From IMG/VR virus record IMGVR_UViG_3300007541_009563, positions 1-22,374 of that record: a DNA stretch of 22,374 bases. One strand, 5' to 3'. Shown here piece after piece: positions 9,858 through 22,374 of this stretch. The notes under the pieces are model-generated. The model saw nothing but the letters and a program-made list of their open reading frames with translations. It did no database searches and was not told the origin of the DNA. Position 1 is the first letter of the stretch, and each line of letters starts with the position of its first letter. Source of the DNA: a virus. A program made the translations under genes and the position numbers.

Positions 9858-10463
9858 TTATTTTCTTTTTAAAACAGTAAAGCCGGGCCAGCTAGGAAGT
9901 GATTCCCATAATTCCCATTCTAAATGTGAAGATAAAAACTCTGTAATAGCAGGCCAAATCCCAACATTGTCATCATCAAAACCACCATATCTAAAAGAAG
10001 TAGTATCATGAAGCATAATATATTTGTTGGCTTTAGAATGATATGCTTCTAATTCTTTTTTTACTTGATCGTAAGTATGGAGAGTATCAATAAAGATAAT
10101 ATCAAAATTAGGTAAACTTCTAATAATTCTATAATCTAAATCATCAGCTTGGATAAACTGAAAATCAATGTTTCGTTGTTCTGCTCCTTTTTTAAGTAAT
10201 TCATAGGCTGTAGTGTCCCAGACATCAATATGATCAATATCAATACCCACATATTTTTTAGGTAGATGATAATCTTTATTTTCTTCTCTTAAACCATAAA
10301 GAAATGCCCAAGTACCAGTAACCCATCTTACTCCTAATTCTAGGACAGAATCACATTCACGGGTGTATTTTTCAATAACAGGAAAAAATTCACTCATATC
10401 AGAAGTAACACTTCTTAAATAGTGATATTTTTCATCAATAATTCTTCTATTCCAAGGTTCCAT
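9858..10463 (-). CDS. CmcI/TylF-like class I SAM methyltransferase
   Basis: The 201-residue protein has motif I VLELGVRWVTGTW (40-52), YVGIDID (71-77) with an acidic strand-2 end, FDIIFIDTLHTYDQVKKEL (120-138) and KYIMLHDTTSF (147-157). The FIDxxHxYxxVKxEL and MLHDT segments are characteristic of the CmcI/Methyltransf_24 group, which methylates hydroxyls of small molecules or sugars and is common in glycan clusters. The ATG overlaps the sulfotransferase-like stop by one base (TAATG). Length is somewhat short but complete. Its substrate is unknown; neighbours suggest that a glycan or nucleotide-linked compound is modified by both methyl and sulfo groups. Confidence 0.78.
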   Translation of the reverse strand: MEPWNRRIIDEKYHYLRSVTSDMSEFFPVIEKYTRECDSVLELGVRWVTGTWAFLYGLREENKDYHLPKKYVGIDIDHIDVWDTTAYELLKKGAEQRNIDFQFIQADDLDYRIIRSLPNFDIIFIDTLHTYDQVKKELEAYHSKANKYIMLHDTTSFRYGGFDDDNVGIWPAITEFLSSHLEWELWESLPSWPGFTVLKRK

Positions 10464-11050
10464 TATTTTGTTTTAATTAAATTATTCCAAACCTTATTAA
10501 AATTGGATTTAGGTATTTCCTTTATGAATTTATTTAAGGTTTCAAAAACTATATCTTTGTTTTCTAGTAAATCAGGATAGGTATATTTTATAAAAGGAAT
10601 TTGTTTTTCTTTTAAATAATAGTCAAAATATTCATTATGTAAATAAAGTAAATCTTTACTTTGACGAGTCCAAAATTGACCTTCATTTTGACCCTTTTCA
10701 ATTAACCTGTTTGCTGATTCTAATACTAAGGAAGGTTTTCTATACATCCAGATTACTTTAAGTTCTGGAAAATGGCGTTTAATATAGTGGAGATTGTTGT
10801 TGTATAAAAATCTAGGATCTTTAAATAAACCTATATATCTGTAATAGGGGATATTACTTACAAACCAACCTACGGCTTCTTCTACTTTACCCCCAGACCA
10901 CAAATCATTAAATCTAACTATTGAAGGATGTTCTAGACCAGCATCCATTTTATCATTAAAATTAGCTTGCAGGTTAATATTATACAATTGACTCAACAAT
11001 TGAACCATTAAGCTAGTTCCACTTCTACCTGTGCCGGTGACTATGATCAT
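10463..11050 (-). CDS. sulfotransferase-like P-loop protein
   Basis: With the ATG at 11050 (MIIVTGTGRSGTSLM) the protein has 195 residues and its start overlaps the upstream stop as ATGA; a longer frame would need GTG at 11059. The N-terminal TGTGRSGTS (5-13) is the 5'-phosphosulfate-binding loop of PAPS-dependent sulfotransferases. YRKPSLVLES in the middle matches the 3'-phosphate motif (RxPxxxxxS). It is shorter than most sulfotransferases, and no distinct acceptor site can be named. The expected reaction is transfer of sulfate from PAPS to a sugar, lipid or protein. A kinase-like P-loop is less likely because of the second motif. It is followed by a methyltransferase with one-base overlap. 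Confidence 0.75.
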   Translation of the reverse strand: MIIVTGTGRSGTSLMVQLLSQLYNINLQANFNDKMDAGLEHPSIVRFNDLWSGGKVEEAVGWFVSNIPYYRYIGLFKDPRFLYNNNLHYIKRHFPELKVIWMYRKPSLVLESANRLIEKGQNEGQFWTRQSKDLLYLHNEYFDYYLKEKQIPFIKYTYPDLLENKDIVFETLNKFIKEIPKSNFNKVWNNLIKTK

Positions 11051-11424
11051 TTTTTCCACTTACCTTTCATTACTAACATAGCAATAATACCATAGTTAGC
11101 AATATCTAAAAAACTATCAACCATAGGTTCATTTTCAACGTAATTTTTACCTTTACGTTTCAATAAATTTTTTAAACGATTGATTTTATCATTAATACGG
11201 AGCCAAATACCTGTAAGTGATAATTCAATATCTTCTTGATCTTCAAGATTTGACCCTAAAGCAATATTTGAAAGTCCATAATCCATCATTTTCTTAGCAA
11301 ACAACCTGTATTGTTCTTCTTGGGTTTCTTTCCAAGCTTTTGCTAATGTTGGATATGTTTTTTCAAAATCACGAATTGCTTTTTCCTCACCTGTGTGAGA
11401 ATTATAACCTACTTGTTCTTCCAT
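11047..11424 (-). CDS. Nmad1 (DUF1599) nucleotide-modification-associated protein
   Basis: A 125-residue all-helical protein. The segments FAKKMMDYG (42-50), LTGIWLRINDKINRLKNLL (70-88) and SFLDIANYGIIAMLVMKGKW (104-123) match the DUF1599/Nmad1 family, a MazG-like helical group found in phages and in operons that modify nucleotides. The conserved acidic and basic residues (KKxxDYG, RxxDKxxRLxNL, DxANY) would form the nucleotide and metal site. No enzymatic activity is established for the family as far as I know. The gene lies directly after the small clamp-loader subunit (1 nt apart), and its TGA overlaps the ATG of the sulfotransferase-like gene. This placement next to the replication genes is consistent with acting on nucleotides or DNA. 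Confidence 0.8.
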   Translation of the reverse strand: MEEQVGYNSHTGEEKAIRDFEKTYPTLAKAWKETQEEQYRLFAKKMMDYGLSNIALGSNLEDQEDIELSLTGIWLRINDKINRLKNLLKRKGKNYVENEPMVDSFLDIANYGIIAMLVMKGKWKK

Positions 11425-13371: not shown

Positions 13372-13625
13372 TCGAAATCTCCGTATATGTTAAATTTCTT
13401 AGGAGGTTCAGGTTTAACTTCGACTTCTTCAGTACGAATAACATACAATTTACTATCAAGAGGTGCTAAACGAAATTCTGCTTTTTCACCTGTTTTACTA
13501 AACCAAGCTTCAAGTGTTTCAGTAAGTGAATTATGTATAACTTTATCCCCCACAAGTACCCAAGAATCACCTGGAGGGTGTCTTGTTGCTATGACTTCTA
13601 AATGTTCTTTAGTTTCTACACTCAT
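13368..13625 (-). CDS. small hypothetical protein
   Basis: An 85-residue protein starting MSVETKEHLEVIATRHPPGD, then SWVLVGDKVIHNSLTETLEA, WFSKTGEKAEFRLAPLD and KLYVIRTEEVEVKPEPPKKF. The middle looks like a strand-helix-strand unit and the tail is proline/glutamate rich. No family is recognised. The first 17 nt lie under the end of the HNH endonuclease gene, which may mean that the endonuclease was inserted just before it and extended over its start. The stop overlaps the next ATG (ATGA). It is probably part of the original replication operon upstream of the clamp loader. Confidence 0.65.
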   Translation of the reverse strand: MSVETKEHLEVIATRHPPGDSWVLVGDKVIHNSLTETLEAWFSKTGEKAEFRLAPLDSKLYVIRTEEVEVKPEPPKKFNIYGDFE

Positions 13626-14340
13626 ATTGAATTTTATCTTCTTTTTTCAGTTTATAAAACATATATTCACTCATTCCTGTTACCTCTAATAAAGATTTTT
13701 TTGTAGAGAATGTTTTACCTTGATATGTTACTTTTTTCCCAGCAAAATTATTACTAGAACCTTTATGTTCTTCTAAATGTAATAATTCTCCTTCGAATTT
13801 CCAAATATAGCCATAAGCACTTTTTTGTTTTAATTTACAACAAGCAACAATATTGCTATGTAATTCTTTCCAATGAACACCAGGCTTATTATTTATGTAC
13901 CTTTCGGCTTCTATAGCTGAGGGGAATTCTGCTATTTTATTTCCTTGAAAATCGTATTGAATAACTTTTTTAGAATTTCGTTTACCTATTTTTTGTTTAT
14001 GCCTTTCAGAAATTTTAGTTCCTTTTTTACTTTCACTAACTTTTAATCTTGTTCTTTCGTAATCTCTACTGGTAACATGATATGGAGGTAAACCTTTCCA
14101 ACGTTTCTTCCCTATAGCCATCATCCATAAAGCCCACAACAATTTATGTTCATTAGGATAAATTTCAACTAACAATTTATGGGCTAAGAAATGTTCTTTA
14201 GCTGTTAGTTTTACTAAGTTTTCATCAGTATCTTTCCCTCCTATACATTTAGGAATGATATGATGTGTTTCATTATAACCTTGTAAAGTACGATTTTGAG
14301 CTTTTGATATAAGTTGGTTGTAAATTTTAGAGTAATCCAT
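13609..14340 (-). CDS. HNH homing endonuclease with NUMOD-type DNA-binding tail
   Basis: Read from the ATG at 14340 (MDYSKIYNQLISKAQ) this gives 243 residues; a longer frame would need TTG at 14346. ETHHIIPKCIGG (24-35), followed by ENLVKLTAKEHFLAHKLL (40-57), is an HNH fold with H26/H27, N41, H50 and H54. After a basic linker with KKGTKISERHKQK, the segment KKVIQYDFQGNKIAEFPSAI, then NIVACCKLKQKSAYGYIWKF, is the NUMOD1/IENR-like DNA-binding repeat of phage homing endonucleases. It would nick or cut a target site so that the gene is copied into it. It is free-standing, 24 nt after the hairpin that ends the chaperonin genes, and its stop lies inside the next gene. No intron or intein is seen around it. 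Confidence 0.88.
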   Translation of the reverse strand: MDYSKIYNQLISKAQNRTLQGYNETHHIIPKCIGGKDTDENLVKLTAKEHFLAHKLLVEIYPNEHKLLWALWMMAIGKKRWKGLPPYHVTSRDYERTRLKVSESKKGTKISERHKQKIGKRNSKKVIQYDFQGNKIAEFPSAIEAERYINNKPGVHWKELHSNIVACCKLKQKSAYGYIWKFEGELLHLEEHKGSSNNFAGKKVTYQGKTFSTKKSLLEVTGMSEYMFYKLKKEDKIQYECRN

Positions 14341-14363
14341 AATCAATTATTTAATTATAAATA

Positions 14364-14408: not shown

Positions 14409-16328
<1,920 letters not shown>

Positions 16329-16332
<4 letters not shown>

Positions 16333-16631
16333 ACGCTAATTTTACTAAAAAGTTTATCAATAATTTCTTGTTGGACATTCCATTCTTCAAGATAACTTTG
16401 AATAGAATTATATTCACCTCCCTTAAGATCAATTTGAGCTTTAGCAATTGCTTTCAAAGCAGAGCCAAAATTTCCATAATGTCCTAGAGGTTTTTGGTAA
16501 TCTTTACCTTTACTTCCTACTTCTAAGTTATCTTTATCAGGAGTAACGGTTTCATATACTGTATAACAGTATTGATCTTTTGAAATGTGAAACGGCTCAA
16601 TAGCCGGATCTTTAATAATTGTATAACTCAT
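16329..16631 (-). CDS. small phage protein of unknown function
   Basis: A 100-residue protein, MSYTIIKDPAIEPFHISKD. It has the segments YCYTVYETVTPDKDN, KGKDYQKPLGHYGNFGSALK and a helical C-terminus YLEEWNVQQEIIDKLFSKI. The order strand, strand, YxxFxxALKxI helix, then a tail resembles a group of short phage proteins of unknown function, but I cannot name the family with confidence. It is the first gene after the promoter-like gap and overlaps groES (ATGA), so it leads the chaperonin operon. Its ATG at 16631 has an A-rich leader (AAAACAAAGTTATG) without a Shine-Dalgarno. Confidence 0.7.
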
Positions 16632-16648
16632 AACTTTGTTTTATAATG

Positions 16649-16679
16649 TAAATATACGAACTTTTTTTAACAAAACCAA
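16649..16679 (-). promoter_or_regulatory. Bacteroidetes-type promoter candidate before the chaperonin operon
   Basis: On the minus strand a TTG (16679-16677) is separated by 20 nt from TATATTTA (16656-16649). This fits the Bacteroidetes pattern of TTG/TTTG, about 20 nt, TAnnTTTG, with the last base A instead of G. It lies in a 66-nt gap, and the box is about 18 nt before the ATG of the 100-residue gene, so the leader would be very short. The sequence is AT-rich, which makes a chance match possible. Confidence 0.45.
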
Positions 16680-16689
16680 CTTTAGGGAG
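16666..16689 (+). repeat. left arm of an inverted repeat flanking hsp20
   Basis: The plus strand here reads TTTAACAAAACC, then AA, then CTTTAGGGAG. The same sequence with a 2-nt insertion is found in opposite orientation at 17185-17210, so the two arms face each other across hsp20. The left arm lies in the gap downstream of hsp20 and overlaps the chaperonin promoter candidate. Confidence 0.7.
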
Positions 16690-16697
16690 CGATTTAT

Positions 16698-17129
16698 TTA
16701 CTTAATTTTAATTGCTTTTGGTTTAGCTTCTTCAGCAAATGGGATTCTAATTCCTAGCAATCCATTTTCCATCATTGCCTCCGTTTTAGAGAGGTCAAAT
16801 TTAGAAGCAATTTTATAACCTAAATTAAATGAACGCTTAGCAATTCCTCTGTGAATGTAATTACACTCATTAGTTTCACAACAAGCTTCATCTTTGGGTT
16901 TATTGTAAGAAATTCTAAGAACGTCTCCTTCGATATTGATTTCAATATCGGATTTAGAAAGACCAGTACAGGCAATATCAAAATGTAGCCCGTGCTTGTT
17001 CTCAAAAATATCTACTGGGTGGGAAATTTTGGCTTGTACAGCCGGTTGGAAATCAAGTTCCGACTTAAAAAAGTCTCTAAATAATAGATCAAATGGTGAG
17101 ACATATGTCTCATTAAATAATGTACTCAT
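16698..17129 (-). CDS. hsp20: Hsp20 small heat shock protein
   Basis: A 143-residue alpha-crystallin-domain protein. The N-terminal arm (MSTLFNETYVSPFDLLFRDFF) is followed by HPVDIFENKHGLHFDIACTG (37-56), SDIEINIEGDVLRISYNK and the ACD signature ENGLLGIRIPF (120-130). It ends in KPKAIKIK, whose IKI serves as the C-terminal IxI anchor. It should form oligomers that hold unfolding proteins in the phage-infected cell and may hand them to the GroEL/ES pair encoded downstream. Small Hsp20 genes are known in T4-like cyanophages. The gene stands alone between two gaps with promoter-like boxes and an inverted repeat, unlike the tight packing elsewhere. Confidence 0.95.
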   Translation of the reverse strand: MSTLFNETYVSPFDLLFRDFFKSELDFQPAVQAKISHPVDIFENKHGLHFDIACTGLSKSDIEINIEGDVLRISYNKPKDEACCETNECNYIHRGIAKRSFNLGYKIASKFDLSKTEAMMENGLLGIRIPFAEEAKPKAIKIK

Positions 17130-17220: not shown

Positions 17221-17955
17221 TTAAAATTCAGTTTCTGCTTTTCTTATCATAAAATATTCACTAGAAATATTATCTGAAGTAAATTGAAGACAAATTAATC
17301 CCATATCACTCATAAATAACTTTCCACCATCTGCATCTTTATTAGCTTGAAGAATGGTTTTAAACATATCTGAATTAAATGGGTTTTTAAGGTCTAATTT
17401 ATCAATTTTACCTGAGATTTGGTAAGTAATTTTATTAATGTGACCTTTTTCATCTCCAAAAATAAATTCACAAACATTTTCATCATCTAGGTTAGTAGTA
17501 GTTGAAACAATCATATTATCAACCCCAGATAAAGCACTTTTAGCTTTAATTAGATTATCAACATCTTCTGATGATAAATCTAATTCTACAACCCATTCAG
17601 GAACATTAACAGTTCCTACTTTATTAATGAGTAAAGGATCTGATAAAGCATAAGTCAAGTTGAAATTCATATCTGAGATTTTCAATTTTGTAAATACTTT
17701 ATTAATTTTTTCTAGTTCAAGAAGCAAATCACCATTACAAATACTAATCAAACTTTGTAATTTTTTAGTATCATAAACAGCTAATTGGCTATCTTCTAGT
17801 TCAAAATCACTACAAATTACATTACCAATAACATCTTTATTAGGAGTCATAAAATGGATTTCTAAATTATTATTAGTAATATTCCATTTTACTTTTTCAT
17901 TCAGCCCCAAATAATATTTGTTAATAATAGACTGTAGTACTAATTTGTTTATCAT
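17221..17955 (-). CDS. 45: DNA polymerase sliding clamp (T4 gp45-like)
   Basis: The 244-residue protein has gp45-type segments: MINKLVLQSIINKYYLGLNE at the start, DFELEDSQLAVYDTKKLQSL in the first domain, NVPEWVVELDLSSEDVDNLIKA in the middle and a C-terminal FMSDMGLICLQFTSDNISSE. Length is close to T4 gp45 (228). It should trimerise into a ring around DNA, tether the split polymerase and serve late transcription. In T4 gp45, gp44 and gp62 are adjacent; here the chaperone module and other genes lie between gp45 and gp44. The ATG has an AATTAAGTTATG leader without a Shine-Dalgarno. Confidence 0.85.
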   Translation of the reverse strand: MINKLVLQSIINKYYLGLNEKVKWNITNNNLEIHFMTPNKDVIGNVICSDFELEDSQLAVYDTKKLQSLISICNGDLLLELEKINKVFTKLKISDMNFNLTYALSDPLLINKVGTVNVPEWVVELDLSSEDVDNLIKAKSALSGVDNMIVSTTTNLDDENVCEFIFGDEKGHINKITYQISGKIDKLDLKNPFNSDMFKTILQANKDADGGKLFMSDMGLICLQFTSDNISSEYFMIRKAETEF

Positions 17956-17981: not shown

Positions 17982-18779
17982 TTATTTTTGAAGAATCCAC
18001 TCGTAAGGGAAAAGTTTATAAAGTTTATTATAATCTGGTCCAAAAATAATATTTTTAGCAAGTTCATAAGGAGTTAATCCTTCATGGGGGACTGGTTGAT
18101 GGTAACTATAGTACATAAATTCTTCATTTATATACACCATTTTATACTTTTCATAAGTACCTTCAGTACTATTAGAAGGACCTATCTCATAATTAACATA
18201 ACATCCTTCATCTCCAATTAAATTAACTATATTTAAATCTGGGAATAGGTTTTTAATAGTATCTGAGTGTATACTTTCAATAGCATGATTATCAGATTTC
18301 CAATGGCTGATGTAATCATGACACGCTTCAACATATTCTATATGATCTTTTATAGGCATAGAAGGATCTAGATAAAAATGAACAGTTTTTCCATATGGAT
18401 TAAATTCATTTGAATATACTTTAAGTAATTCTCCTTCATGAAATTCAAAAGCTTCAATAACCCAGTTAGTATGCCATTGTCTTATAGTTTCAAAAAAAGT
18501 ATTAGGTTGTTGGTAATGCCATTGAACCGCTAAATTTTCATTATTTACTTTATTATGTAAATATAATAACACCGGAGCATTTCCTTCAGATGTAAATCTT
18601 ACCCCAACATTTCGAATATTATATTCAATAAAAAAATTATTAGGTTTTTGTATTACTTTAGGAACACTAGCTCTAGGTACAAATTTAACTTTACTAGAGT
18701 CAAAATTTTCTACTCTAATTGCGTTTTTAACTTGAGGGTTAAATTCTGCTAAAGGGATAGATTTAAAGGCATTTTTCAT
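17982..18779 (-). CDS. unknown protein paired with the carbamoyltransferase
   Basis: A 265-residue soluble protein that I do not recognise. Visible are a strand-rich N-terminal half (NFFIEYNIRNVGVRF, APVLLYLHNK), a Trp/His-rich middle (AVQWHYQQP, IRQWHTNWVIEAFEF), EFNPYGKTVHFYLDP, an acidic/aromatic segment EGCYVNYEIGP and a C-terminal LAKNIIFGPDYNKLYKLFPY. No cysteine pairs, P-loop or membrane segment is seen. The ATG overlaps the carbamoyltransferase stop (ATGA), so the two are probably coupled and may work on the same substrate. The aromatic and histidine content would suit ligand or metal binding; this is only a guess. Confidence 0.65.
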   Translation of the reverse strand: MKNAFKSIPLAEFNPQVKNAIRVENFDSSKVKFVPRASVPKVIQKPNNFFIEYNIRNVGVRFTSEGNAPVLLYLHNKVNNENLAVQWHYQQPNTFFETIRQWHTNWVIEAFEFHEGELLKVYSNEFNPYGKTVHFYLDPSMPIKDHIEYVEACHDYISHWKSDNHAIESIHSDTIKNLFPDLNIVNLIGDEGCYVNYEIGPSNSTEGTYEKYKMVYINEEFMYYSYHQPVPHEGLTPYELAKNIIFGPDYNKLYKLFPYEWILQK

Positions 18780-20410
18780 TTTTTCTTATAAATTTTATTA
18801 CCAGCAATCAAATAATCAATAGTACCTCTCATAAGGTGATTAAATGCTTGGTCAGGAGCATTAATGATAGGTTCCCCATGACCATTAAATGAAGTATTTA
18901 ACATAACAGGAATACCTGATAATTTATAATACTCATTTAAAATATTCCAAAATACAGGATTTTTATGTTTATAAACAATTTGAGGGCGACCTGTATTATC
19001 TACTCGGTGAATTACAGCTGGAATTTTATCTTCCCATTCAGGGCGAACAGTATAACACATAGTCATAAATTCAGCAGTATGTTGAGATTGAGGGACATCA
19101 AATACAATATCAGCATACTCAGCTAACACAAAAGGAGCAAAGGGCATAATTTCATGTCGTTCTAATCTTGTGTTAAGTACCTCATGTGTTTCAGCATCTG
19201 TGGGTCTTACCATTACTGAACGAGCGCCTAATGCTCTAGGACCAAATTCAAATCGACCATTAAATAAAGCAATAATATTACCTTCATGAATTAGGCGACC
19301 TGCTTCAGCATAATCTAAAGGTTTTGATTCTACTGGGATATAAGAAGCATATTTGTCTATTTCTAGTTGAGAATATTCTAAACCAAGAAAAGAATTTTCT
19401 AATTGCTTAACTCCTTTCCAATCACCTGCTAAAATAGAACCATATACAGCCGAACCGAAACTAATACCATCATCACCCATAGCTGGGAAGATGAACATTT
19501 TATCATAAAGCCCAGATTCATTAATTACTTGGTTAAGTTTTACATTGGCAAATAGTCCTCCGGCTACTGCTAAATTTCTGTATTCAGGATATTTAGCTGA
19601 TACATCTCTAAGGTATTCCATAAAGATATCTTCAGTATATTTTTGTAGATTAAAAGCAAAATCTTGTCGTTTTTCTTTAGTTTCAAACCATCCCTCCTTT
19701 CTAAGTTGGTCATAAAGAAAACTAATCCTTTCACCATTTTCAGGATAATCAAACATTAAATTACCTTTATATTTAATGCCGCTTTTAAATGCATTATAAA
19801 GATATTCATTATAATGACCATGACCTGCCATCCCCATAATTTTACCTTCGTCTTTAGTACCTCTCCATCCAAAGAAACCACAGGCGTGAAACCACATATT
19901 AGCAATAGAACCTTGAGTGTGGAGATTTACTGAATGAACTCTATCCATTTTTCCATTCTCAGCTAACCAAATACCTCCATATTCTTTTTCATAAGACCCC
20001 CCATCTGAAGTCAAAACTAAAGTTTTTTCAGTAAACCCAGATGAATAGTAAGTACTATAGGCGTGGGCCTCATGGTGGTTAATAAAATGTACTTTATCTT
20101 TTATAGAAATTAAACGGTCTTTTAAATCTAAAATTAATTTATCATTAGCGGGATCTCCTGTAATATTTTCTCTAAAGGTAAGATTAAACAAAGTAGGATC
20201 ACCTATAACAACAATATCAGCTTCTTCAAGTTTAATTTTACTAGCTTCTTCAATAGCTGCTAAAGAATGTACAGGTGGTTCCCACCAACTCCATCCAGAT
20301 TTTTTTCGAGTAATTCTCTCATCTTCGATAGCATATTTTACTTCACCATCTACAATTAATGTAGTTGAGTGACCATGTGCTCCTAAAAATATTCCGTATA
20401 CTTTAGCCAT
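18776..20410 (-). CDS. NodU/CmcH/TobZ-family carbamoyltransferase
   Basis: A full-length 544-residue enzyme. FLGAHGHSTTLIVDGEV (8-24) and the metal motif NHHEAHA (111-117), with D136 in TSDGG, form the N-terminal domain that makes carbamoyl-AMP (H112, H116 and D136 expected as metal ligands). GRFEFGPRALGARS, with MLNTSFNGHGEPI later, is the C-terminal YrdC-fold-like signature of the family. It should use carbamoyl phosphate and ATP to carbamoylate a hydroxyl of a sugar or other small molecule. It lies 2 nt after the gp43 C-terminal piece and overlaps the next gene (ATGA), between polymerase and clamp. Nearby modification genes raise the possibility of base or glycan carbamoylation, but the acceptor is unknown. 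Confidence 0.93.
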   Translation of the reverse strand: MAKVYGIFLGAHGHSTTLIVDGEVKYAIEDERITRKKSGWSWWEPPVHSLAAIEEASKIKLEEADIVVIGDPTLFNLTFRENITGDPANDKLILDLKDRLISIKDKVHFINHHEAHAYSTYYSSGFTEKTLVLTSDGGSYEKEYGGIWLAENGKMDRVHSVNLHTQGSIANMWFHACGFFGWRGTKDEGKIMGMAGHGHYNEYLYNAFKSGIKYKGNLMFDYPENGERISFLYDQLRKEGWFETKEKRQDFAFNLQKYTEDIFMEYLRDVSAKYPEYRNLAVAGGLFANVKLNQVINESGLYDKMFIFPAMGDDGISFGSAVYGSILAGDWKGVKQLENSFLGLEYSQLEIDKYASYIPVESKPLDYAEAGRLIHEGNIIALFNGRFEFGPRALGARSVMVRPTDAETHEVLNTRLERHEIMPFAPFVLAEYADIVFDVPQSQHTAEFMTMCYTVRPEWEDKIPAVIHRVDNTGRPQIVYKHKNPVFWNILNEYYKLSGIPVMLNTSFNGHGEPIINAPDQAFNHLMRGTIDYLIAGNKIYKKK

Positions 20411-20412
20411 TA

Positions 20413-21345
20413 TTAATCAAAATTAAAAAACATTTCTTGGTAAGGATTTAAATTAAGGTTCCACCCCAAATCATTATAAAAACCTTCTAGTTTATTCAAC
20501 AAAATTGTATCAAAAATTTTCTTTCTATCTGCGTATTCTTCAATAAATTTATAAACTTTATCTGGTAAATCAAAGTCAAGGAAAGCGATTGCTTCAATTT
20601 GGTATACATTAGGTTTAAGATAAATCCATTTAATTTTATCACCTTGAACAATGTAACTATGTTCATTACTTAACTTCCAAAAACGAAGCAAATCATTATA
20701 AACAATAGCAGCCCTGACTGAAGCAGGAGCTCCTTTAGCTACAACTGAAAACATTTCTCCGGCTTTGGCAGAACGTTCAATATATTTGTTTAATGTTTTT
20801 ACAGACGTAGGATTACCTAACTCAGTGAGGGATATGTCTCCATTAAGAATTTGCGATTTAAACGTTTTAACACGCGCATCAATGTCTTTTTGTTTAGCAC
20901 CTTTTAACACATCTACAAGTGCTTGTTTAAAGAAATTACCTAGTACTGGGGGGAAATTTGCTTTTTTAAATTCAAGACCTTTAACATCAAGTGATTCTTT
21001 TGTAATACCTTCTTGCTTAGTAATCCACTGAGCATAACGACGAGTAGCTCTAAAATAAGCTGAACGAATAACACATTCAGTTTTCATTTCAAGTCTATGC
21101 TCTTGAACATTAAAACAATTTCTAGCTAAATCATTATAAGAATTAGTAATAATATCTTGATACTTAAGAGCAACTTCTTCTAATTTATTATCTTTATCTT
21201 CACTTGACATTTCCTCAAAATTAGGATAAAGATAACGTAATAGAGGTTCAGCATGAATATAAATAGAGTCTGTATCAGAGTATGCTACAAAATTTGTATC
21301 ATCAGGATCACAAATCCACCAAGGAGTATCTTCTATATGTTTCAT
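20413..21345 (-). CDS. 43: DNA polymerase gp43, C-terminal piece (motif C, thumb)
   Basis: The 310-residue piece begins at its own ATG and reaches the family B motif C YSDTDS (22-27) within the first 30 residues, with D24 and D26 as catalytic metal ligands. Then come the rest of the palm and the thumb (KTECVIRSAYFRATRRYAQW, DVKGLEFKKANFPP). The C-terminus QEMFFNFD is a hydrophobic peptide like the gp43 tail that binds the clamp. It lacks motifs A and B, which are on the separate N-terminal piece two genes upstream. The two pieces must assemble for activity, as in the split gp43 of some Aeromonas phages. The ATG overlaps the stop of the DUF2452 gene (ATGA). Confidence 0.9.
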   Translation of the reverse strand: MKHIEDTPWWICDPDDTNFVAYSDTDSIYIHAEPLLRYLYPNFEEMSSEDKDNKLEEVALKYQDIITNSYNDLARNCFNVQEHRLEMKTECVIRSAYFRATRRYAQWITKQEGITKESLDVKGLEFKKANFPPVLGNFFKQALVDVLKGAKQKDIDARVKTFKSQILNGDISLTELGNPTSVKTLNKYIERSAKAGEMFSVVAKGAPASVRAAIVYNDLLRFWKLSNEHSYIVQGDKIKWIYLKPNVYQIEAIAFLDFDLPDKVYKFIEEYADRKKIFDTILLNKLEGFYNDLGWNLNLNPYQEMFFNFD

Positions 21346-21713
21346 ATTTTAATCCACTTTTGATCACTATTTAATTTAAATGAACCGATATGTTCCATAT
21401 CCCATTCATTTGGTGCTATTAAAGATAAGAAAGGCTTTCCATCTCTCCCAACGTAAAGGTGATAAGTTTCACCAATAATTGGTTCGTAGGAAAATTTAGC
21501 TTGGTATACTAATTCATTCCATCTATATTCTTCAACTAATTTAAGATACTCTTCTTTAAGTTCATTAAATTTAGTTTCAATTTGTTTATTTACTTTATGA
21601 ACACCTCTAAGTTTCCAATCATCAATATTATCAGGACGAATAACAGGAGCACTTACATTACTTGCATAAGGTAAGAGTCCAGGATTATCAGCTACATTAT
21701 CTGGTTTTTTCAT
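21342..21713 (-). CDS. DUF2452 protein inserted between the two gp43 pieces
   Basis: A 123-residue protein with the DUF2452 pattern: NPGLLPYASNVSAPVIRP near the start, a charged helix (KQIETKFNELKEEYLKLVEE), then EPIIGETYHLYVGRDGKPFL, SLIAPNEWDMEHIGSF and a final KLNSDQKWIKI. The C-terminal half (YHLY...FLSLIAPNEW...G-F-L..D..W) matches the family also known from human C1orf50. No function is established. Both ends are exact ATGA overlaps with the polymerase pieces, so all three are translated as one unit. It lies where a homing endonuclease splits gp43 in some T4-like phages, but it is not an endonuclease. The AGGGGAG upstream is probably just codon use. Confidence 0.82.
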   Translation of the reverse strand: MKKPDNVADNPGLLPYASNVSAPVIRPDNIDDWKLRGVHKVNKQIETKFNELKEEYLKLVEEYRWNELVYQAKFSYEPIIGETYHLYVGRDGKPFLSLIAPNEWDMEHIGSFKLNSDQKWIKI

Positions 21714-22374
21714 AATGTAACTTCTCCCCTAATAACTTTATTCATGTGACGATTTGCTGCTAAAGCACTTTCTTGAATAATACGTTGACCACTCAAAGTA
21801 ATTGCTTCAGATAAAATAACATTACCATAACGGAAACTACCAAGAGCAGTTGCACCATATAAGCTATTCAACAAAATCTTCATAGTGTATTGTTTCATGT
21901 GATATGAAGCCCCTAATTCAGGATCATTTAATTTCTTATATGCTTCCTTCATTTTATTCTTATACAAAACACGTTCATCAAACCATTTTTTTAGAATAGT
22001 AGACAATACTGATTCTCTATCTGTTCTAAAGAATACACCATTAGCTGAAACTGCTAGGTTCATATCTTTAATCAGATTTATTAAACCAGCTACTTTGATT
22101 TTAGTGCGTTTACGTTTAGCATTTTCAATTGTAAGTTCCTCTTCAGGATTTTTAGCAAGCAAATCATTTAAACCTAAACGATTGTTTCTATCATCAGCAT
22201 CAATAATACGACCAACCATTGTTTCCTTACCAATGTTAACAGTCATAATAATTGAAGGGTATAGTGAGGTCAAATCCTCATCAAACATGTAATTGTAAAT
22301 ACCTGCTTTAGGACAAAACAAATAACCACCTGCATAATTTTTCTTTGAAAGTGGATTACGATCTTTAGCAGGAG
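21710..22374 (-). CDS. 43: DNA polymerase gp43, N-terminal piece, 5' end cut by window
   Basis: The frame is open to the window edge, so the start is outside; 220 residues are visible. It reads NPLSKKNYAGGYLFCPKAG, then motif A DEDLTSLYPSI and motif B MKILLNSLYGA, and ends ANRHMNKVIRGEVTL just before the point where T4 gp43 continues into motif C. The exonuclease and N-terminal domains should lie beyond the window. The Leu in GYLF is encoded by TTG and is internal, not a start. The stop overlaps the DUF2452 ATG (ATGA). Together with the 310-residue piece it carries all polymerase motifs, so no conserved part seems lost. Confidence 0.92.
   Translation of the reverse strand, partial: PAKDRNPLSKKNYAGGYLFCPKAGIYNYMFDEDLTSLYPSIIMTVNIGKETMVGRIIDADDRNNRLGLNDLLAKNPEEELTIENAKRKRTKIKVAGLINLIKDMNLAVSANGVFFRTDRESVLSTILKKWFDERVLYKNKMKEAYKKLNDPELGASYHMKQYTMKILLNSLYGATALGSFRYGNVILSEAITLSGQRIIQESALAANRHMNKVIRGEVTL

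Follow-up and report, generated by a model that had tools for sequence, protein, structure and literature searches.

Why should a gene for a DUF2452 protein lie between two halves of a phage DNA polymerase gene, joined to each by overlapping codons, and do the halves constitute a working polymerase? The locus that raises these questions is at one end of a stretch of 22,374 bases, here termed the window, which is one complete IMG/VR record. Three minus-strand ORFs are present there, and the proposal of the first-pass annotation that T4-type gp43 is broken between its motifs B and C is borne out by both profile matches and motifs. The features concerned, with two neighbors further along the same strand, are as follows.

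21710..22372, minus strand: gp43 N-terminal piece, with palm motif A and motif B/fingers (DNA_pol_B, 2.5e-23; phrog_262 positions 375-567)
21710..21713, minus strand: ATGA overlap of the N-piece stop and the DUF2452 start
21342..21713, minus strand: DUF2452 gene (PF10504, 2.3e-11), 123 aa, the cargo of the slot between the halves
21342..21345, minus strand: ATGA overlap of the DUF2452 stop and the C-piece start
20413..21345, minus strand: gp43 C-terminal piece, 310 aa, with motif C (DTDS) and thumb (phrog_262 positions 565-849, 1.2e-45)
18776..20410, minus strand: carbamoyltransferase gene, after the gp43 C piece (PF16861, 6.2e-53; PF02543, 4.1e-31)
17221..17955, minus strand: gp45-type sliding clamp gene (phrog_223, 5.8e-7)

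As had been described, the N piece carries motif A (DLTSLYPS) and motif B (KILLNSLYG) and has GEVTL at its end, 23 residues precede DTDS in the C piece, and the gap is occupied by a full-length DUF2452 gene, and by that alone, with an ATGA overlap at either side (TTATGAAAAAACC and AAATATGAAACAT), the three genes forming one overlapping set. All three PolB motifs (DLTSLYPS, NSLYG and DTDS) are thus kept across the pieces, and the spans of the two on the PHROG 262 profile show them to be consecutive. On alignment with RB69 gp43, residue 214 of the N piece falls at RB69 residue 609 and residue 11 of the C piece at 608, which places the break in the B-C loop at around residue 609, roughly twelve residues ahead of motif C, with some 16 residues around it in the window pieces that are extra to RB69 gp43. 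The start of the N piece is missing from the window since its ORF is open at the contig end. The end of the C piece, QEMFFNFD, presumably resembles a clamp-binding tail. The DUF2452 assignment is secure by Pfam standards (43.8 bits against a gathering cut-off of 25).

Other features of the window are of separate interest. The carbamoyltransferase gene is another passenger, present in some relatives only. An HNH homing endonuclease-like gene (13609-14346; phrog_655, 4e-46) lies beside the GroEL gene of a cluster (14409-17129) that encodes a phage GroEL, a GroES-like small protein and an Hsp20-like protein, and whose order is kept among relatives. A sulfotransferase-family protein is encoded at 10463-11059 (PF13469, 1.5e-9).

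Recurrence of the break among relatives

With the C piece of the window as bait, a scan of viral contigs yielded 421 relatives, and scans with other baits yielded more. Removal of identical copies left 155 distinct loci that hold both gp43 pieces (two loci, L077 and L085, were left out because the de-duplication key merged three loci whose N ends are very short). In every one of the 155, which come from many metagenomes, gp43 is broken at one common place, and dN/dS values of 0.03-0.18 for the N and C halves reveal purifying selection. The N piece of relatives is about 560 aa and includes the exonuclease domain (3′-5′, DNA_pol_B_exo1 at 1.1e-14 in relative L060), the window N piece being 5′-incomplete; their C piece is mostly 308-311 aa.

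In a related group, at about 35% identity, gp43 is intact in 80 of 80 loci. A tree of 126 polymerases, made by a quick method that involves no bootstraps and with outgroups that are very distant (about 35% identity or less), puts the split rows on one side of a branch, with support of 100, and five intact rows on the other. The tree suggests that the split arose once, with a single origin in the clade. The clade has no member in a collection of 50,697 isolate phage records, where the top hits of the C piece share about 34% identity with it.

Departures at individual loci are also on record. The N piece of L062 (2220-4001) has a tail of about 33 residues, ending PGERMTVVGTSFSLGTSESLER, ahead of a TAATG junction, and N-piece tails are likewise variable in L003 and L136. 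One contig alone, L130 (4001-4939), has TAAGCA inside motif C of its C half (YSDT-stop-A-DS), whether as an error or as a second break. In jumbo phage LR756508 (L140:2999-4864) a 621-aa ORF contains the match to the gp43 C piece, and that ORF gave no match to the window N piece; possibly this is another arrangement of the polymerase.

The junction and its occupants

What lies between the halves varies greatly. No insert is present in 71 of the 155 loci, counting both 57 where the slot is simply empty and 14 whose slot is likewise empty but which carry DUF2452 immediately after the C half. A small protein here termed K (about 80-90 aa, KQSIRKG family) is alone in the slot in 31, accompanied by an Smr-domain gene (Smr) in 24 and by Smr and DUF2452 in 10. 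DUF2452 is the sole occupant in 6 and Smr in 4, mixed pairs are present in 3, and among the contents of the other 6 are a block of sugar genes and genes for an epimerase, a cupin and cysteine synthases (one of the six, that of L334, is a divergent K on visual inspection). In relative L077, which is not among the 155, the slot holds a gene for a SegE-like GIY-YIG endonuclease (L077:167-995; phrog_314, 3.5e-23), the second half of which is apparently degraded. Where there is no insert, the junction is ATGA in 58 cases and TAATG in 9, the rest being a few bases apart; in most slot-free relatives, in other words, N is joined directly to C by the same ATGA that flanks the insert of the window. The window and L011 share TTACATTATGAAAAAACC on the N side and AAAATATGAAACA on the C side. 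Both the DUF2452 gene and the C gene start ATGAAA, a short homology that could aid clean entry and exit of passengers.

The explanation that very probably holds is that of an old split of gp43, fixed in one clade and coupled by stop-restart, with the junction serving as a landing site for cargo genes. The gp43 gene of an uncultured T4-like clade, probably infecting Flavobacteriia, would have undergone an ancient break in the B-C loop, probably in a single ancestral event, by an endonuclease or another insertion. The break would then have become fixed, with the halves as separate proteins that are translated in turn via the overlapping stop and start codons (ATGA or TAATG) and that assemble, with no linker, into a single polymerase. 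From then on the junction could act as an intergenic position tolerant of insertion within an essential replication operon, which passengers enter and leave, perhaps via a short shared sequence such as ATGAAA. The present passenger in the window, a DUF2452 gene of host type, would not be needed for the halves to join. Translational coupling is suggested by the form of the stop-start overlaps. Reassembly into an active polymerase is to be expected both from conservation and by analogy with Aeromonas phage 25, whose split gp43 pieces co-purify and have polymerase activity (PMC2988022).

As to how the break came about, it is possible, if rather doubtful, that the junction was a homing site, an endonuclease having split gp43, with DUF2452 and other genes later replacing or accompanying it. 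The SegE-type gene in L077 is in keeping with this, as is the standing of gp43 as a known target of seg-type endonucleases, and a split may come before the arrival of an endonuclease, which may enter a gene already divided (PMC2988022). On the other hand, an endonuclease is present in only one of the loci inspected, most slots being empty or with non-mobile genes, an Rfam scan of the window gave no match to an intron or structured RNA, and the sequences seen carry no record of how the split arose. The earlier suggestion that DUF2452 replaced an endonuclease is possible, with one relative in its favor and the many empty or otherwise filled slots against it. Such an origin of the split is a possible one and compatible with the use of the junction by cargo.

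K, whose occurrence is almost limited to the split clade, would be a better candidate than DUF2452 if the split polymerase has a small partner protein at all. K is the commonest slot gene and is usually first after the N half. Every one of the six split-clade records of at least 130 kb has K, either in the slot or next to queC, whereas the ten intact records of at least 110 kb all lack it. However, this difference between clades may reflect one historical event, and among the six long records three are near-copies. Some long but partial split records (95-98 kb) lack K, one smaller intact record (G043) carries it, and no fold or family match for it was found. That K, rather than DUF2452, is a dedicated partner of the split polymerase of the clade is improbable. 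Equally improbable is the fuller version, where the clade would depend on a B/C-split replicase with K as its own fixed partner, moved between the slot and the queC side, and with the slot a standing cassette site. In two split phages with an empty slot, K adjoins a queC-like gene (L395:6423-6647 and L396:6430-6651).

The other candidate partner is DUF2452 itself, in which the first-pass annotation had seen a possible third subunit holding the two halves together, and for which there is now very little likelihood. ATGA overlaps do flank it on both sides, it occupies the slot of 18 split loci and in another 14 follows the C half directly, and it is under purifying selection (dN/dS about 0.09-0.15). 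Nevertheless the same split in related phages without DUF2452, named beforehand as telling against a functional role, is what most of the clade displays: 137 of the 155 loci have no copy in the slot, including the nearest relative on the tree, L059 (92% identical), where the slot is empty and the halves are joined directly by ATGA. The near-complete 164-kb records L097, L099 and L102 have no PF10504 match anywhere. Conversely, DUF2452 is present in phages with intact gp43, just behind the clamp gene (in L004, and in L013 as a Smr-DUF2452 pair), and at other sites away from gp43, beside clamp-loader genes and near other nucleotide-metabolism genes.

Its distribution and divergence are equally unhelpful to a subunit role. 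On the polymerase tree the placement of DUF2452 in the slot is random, its 12 changes (at least 10 forced by the starred branches) being compared with a shuffled mean of 12.6, and 177 of 500 shuffles being as low; K and Smr are strongly clustered (10 changes against 40 shuffled, and 12 against 30, respectively). Distances for the N and C halves correlate at 0.89, and those for DUF2452 and the C half at 0.52. The window DUF2452 is 93% identical to the copy in L002, with C halves 63% identical, and 88% identical to that in L004, whose gp43 is intact and 35% identical. Together, distribution and sequences demonstrate gain, loss and horizontal transfer of DUF2452 among these phages. Since slot occupancy is random on the tree and divergence tracks that of the polymerase poorly, the third-subunit option is unsupported by presence, place, tree or sequence. 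Given the residual correlation with the C half and the frequent proximity to gp43 or gp45, a role linked to replication and independent of the split is conceivable. DUF2452 is one of several small passengers that use the slot.

The source of this passenger is also pertinent. Its closest bacterial counterparts are in Flavobacterium and other Bacteroidota, at 56-64% identity, which makes Flavobacteriia the likely host. The PF10504 family has cellular members (human C1orf50 and the Flavobacterium homologs), and the window protein, which passes the Pfam cut-off and is about 60% identical to those of Flavobacterium, differs from them in being phage-borne cargo. We know of no function for the family, and the open-access papers searched hold no account of a phage DUF2452 or of DUF2452 function, a weak form of absence. 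An AlphaFold model (mean pLDDT 77) has a long helix at residues 30-71 and C-terminal strands. Its best Foldseek match in the PDB, a phage tropism determinant, is weak (E 0.075), VIA-align 2 gave a Z of 5.5 at most, to long helices, and only two viral models matched at E below 0.001, the better being another DUF2452; a sequence search for relatives in the PDB gave nothing significant. Inference of function from fold was set aside, no structural match being informative.

The weakest alternative, an assembly join at the window locus or a decaying polymerase pseudogene, has the single-contig view of the window as its sole point and next to no chance of being correct, given the same-site break in 155 distinct contigs from many metagenomes, dN/dS far below 1 for both halves and intact catalytic motifs.

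Relation to known split phage genes

This clade adds a second, seemingly far larger example of a replicative polymerase, essential as it is, that is permanently in two pieces. The break point is a new one, next to the catalytic Asp motif, and the natural variants with and without passengers make the reassembly of a PolB palm from two chains directly testable. Use of an essential phage gene as a cargo site also helps explain why, in phages from metagenomes, unrelated small genes overlap those for replication. The open-access papers searched gave no description of gp43 split between B and C, an absence that is weak with the key 2010 paper by Petrov et al. outside the search.

The obvious comparison, already drawn in the first-pass annotation, is with Aeromonas phages, and it is apt in kind and not in place. 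Phages 44RR2.8t and 25 (43A/43B; PMC2988022), like the window clade, have the T4-type PolB as two proteins. In 44RR, however, the break separates motif A from motif B: within its 43B, motifs B and C are found at residues 51 and 108, respectively. Identity of the two break points was considered and is ruled out, motif B being in 43B there and in the N piece in the window. The gap in the Aeromonas split gp43 can be untranslated DNA or hold an endonuclease (PMC2988022), and that of the window has neither. Compared with the Aeromonas cases, the window clade is distinguished by the B-C break, its fixation in a large clade, the ATGA gene overlap, and cargo (DUF2452, Smr and K).

A further parallel is the nrdA gene of Aeromonas phage Aeh1, split by insertion of mobE (PMC2988022), in that there too an essential enzyme is in two pieces, and Aeh1 nrdA stays functional. 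The difference is again in the gap, which in Aeh1 nrdA still holds its endonuclease, whereas for the gp43 slot an endonuclease is present in one relative only.
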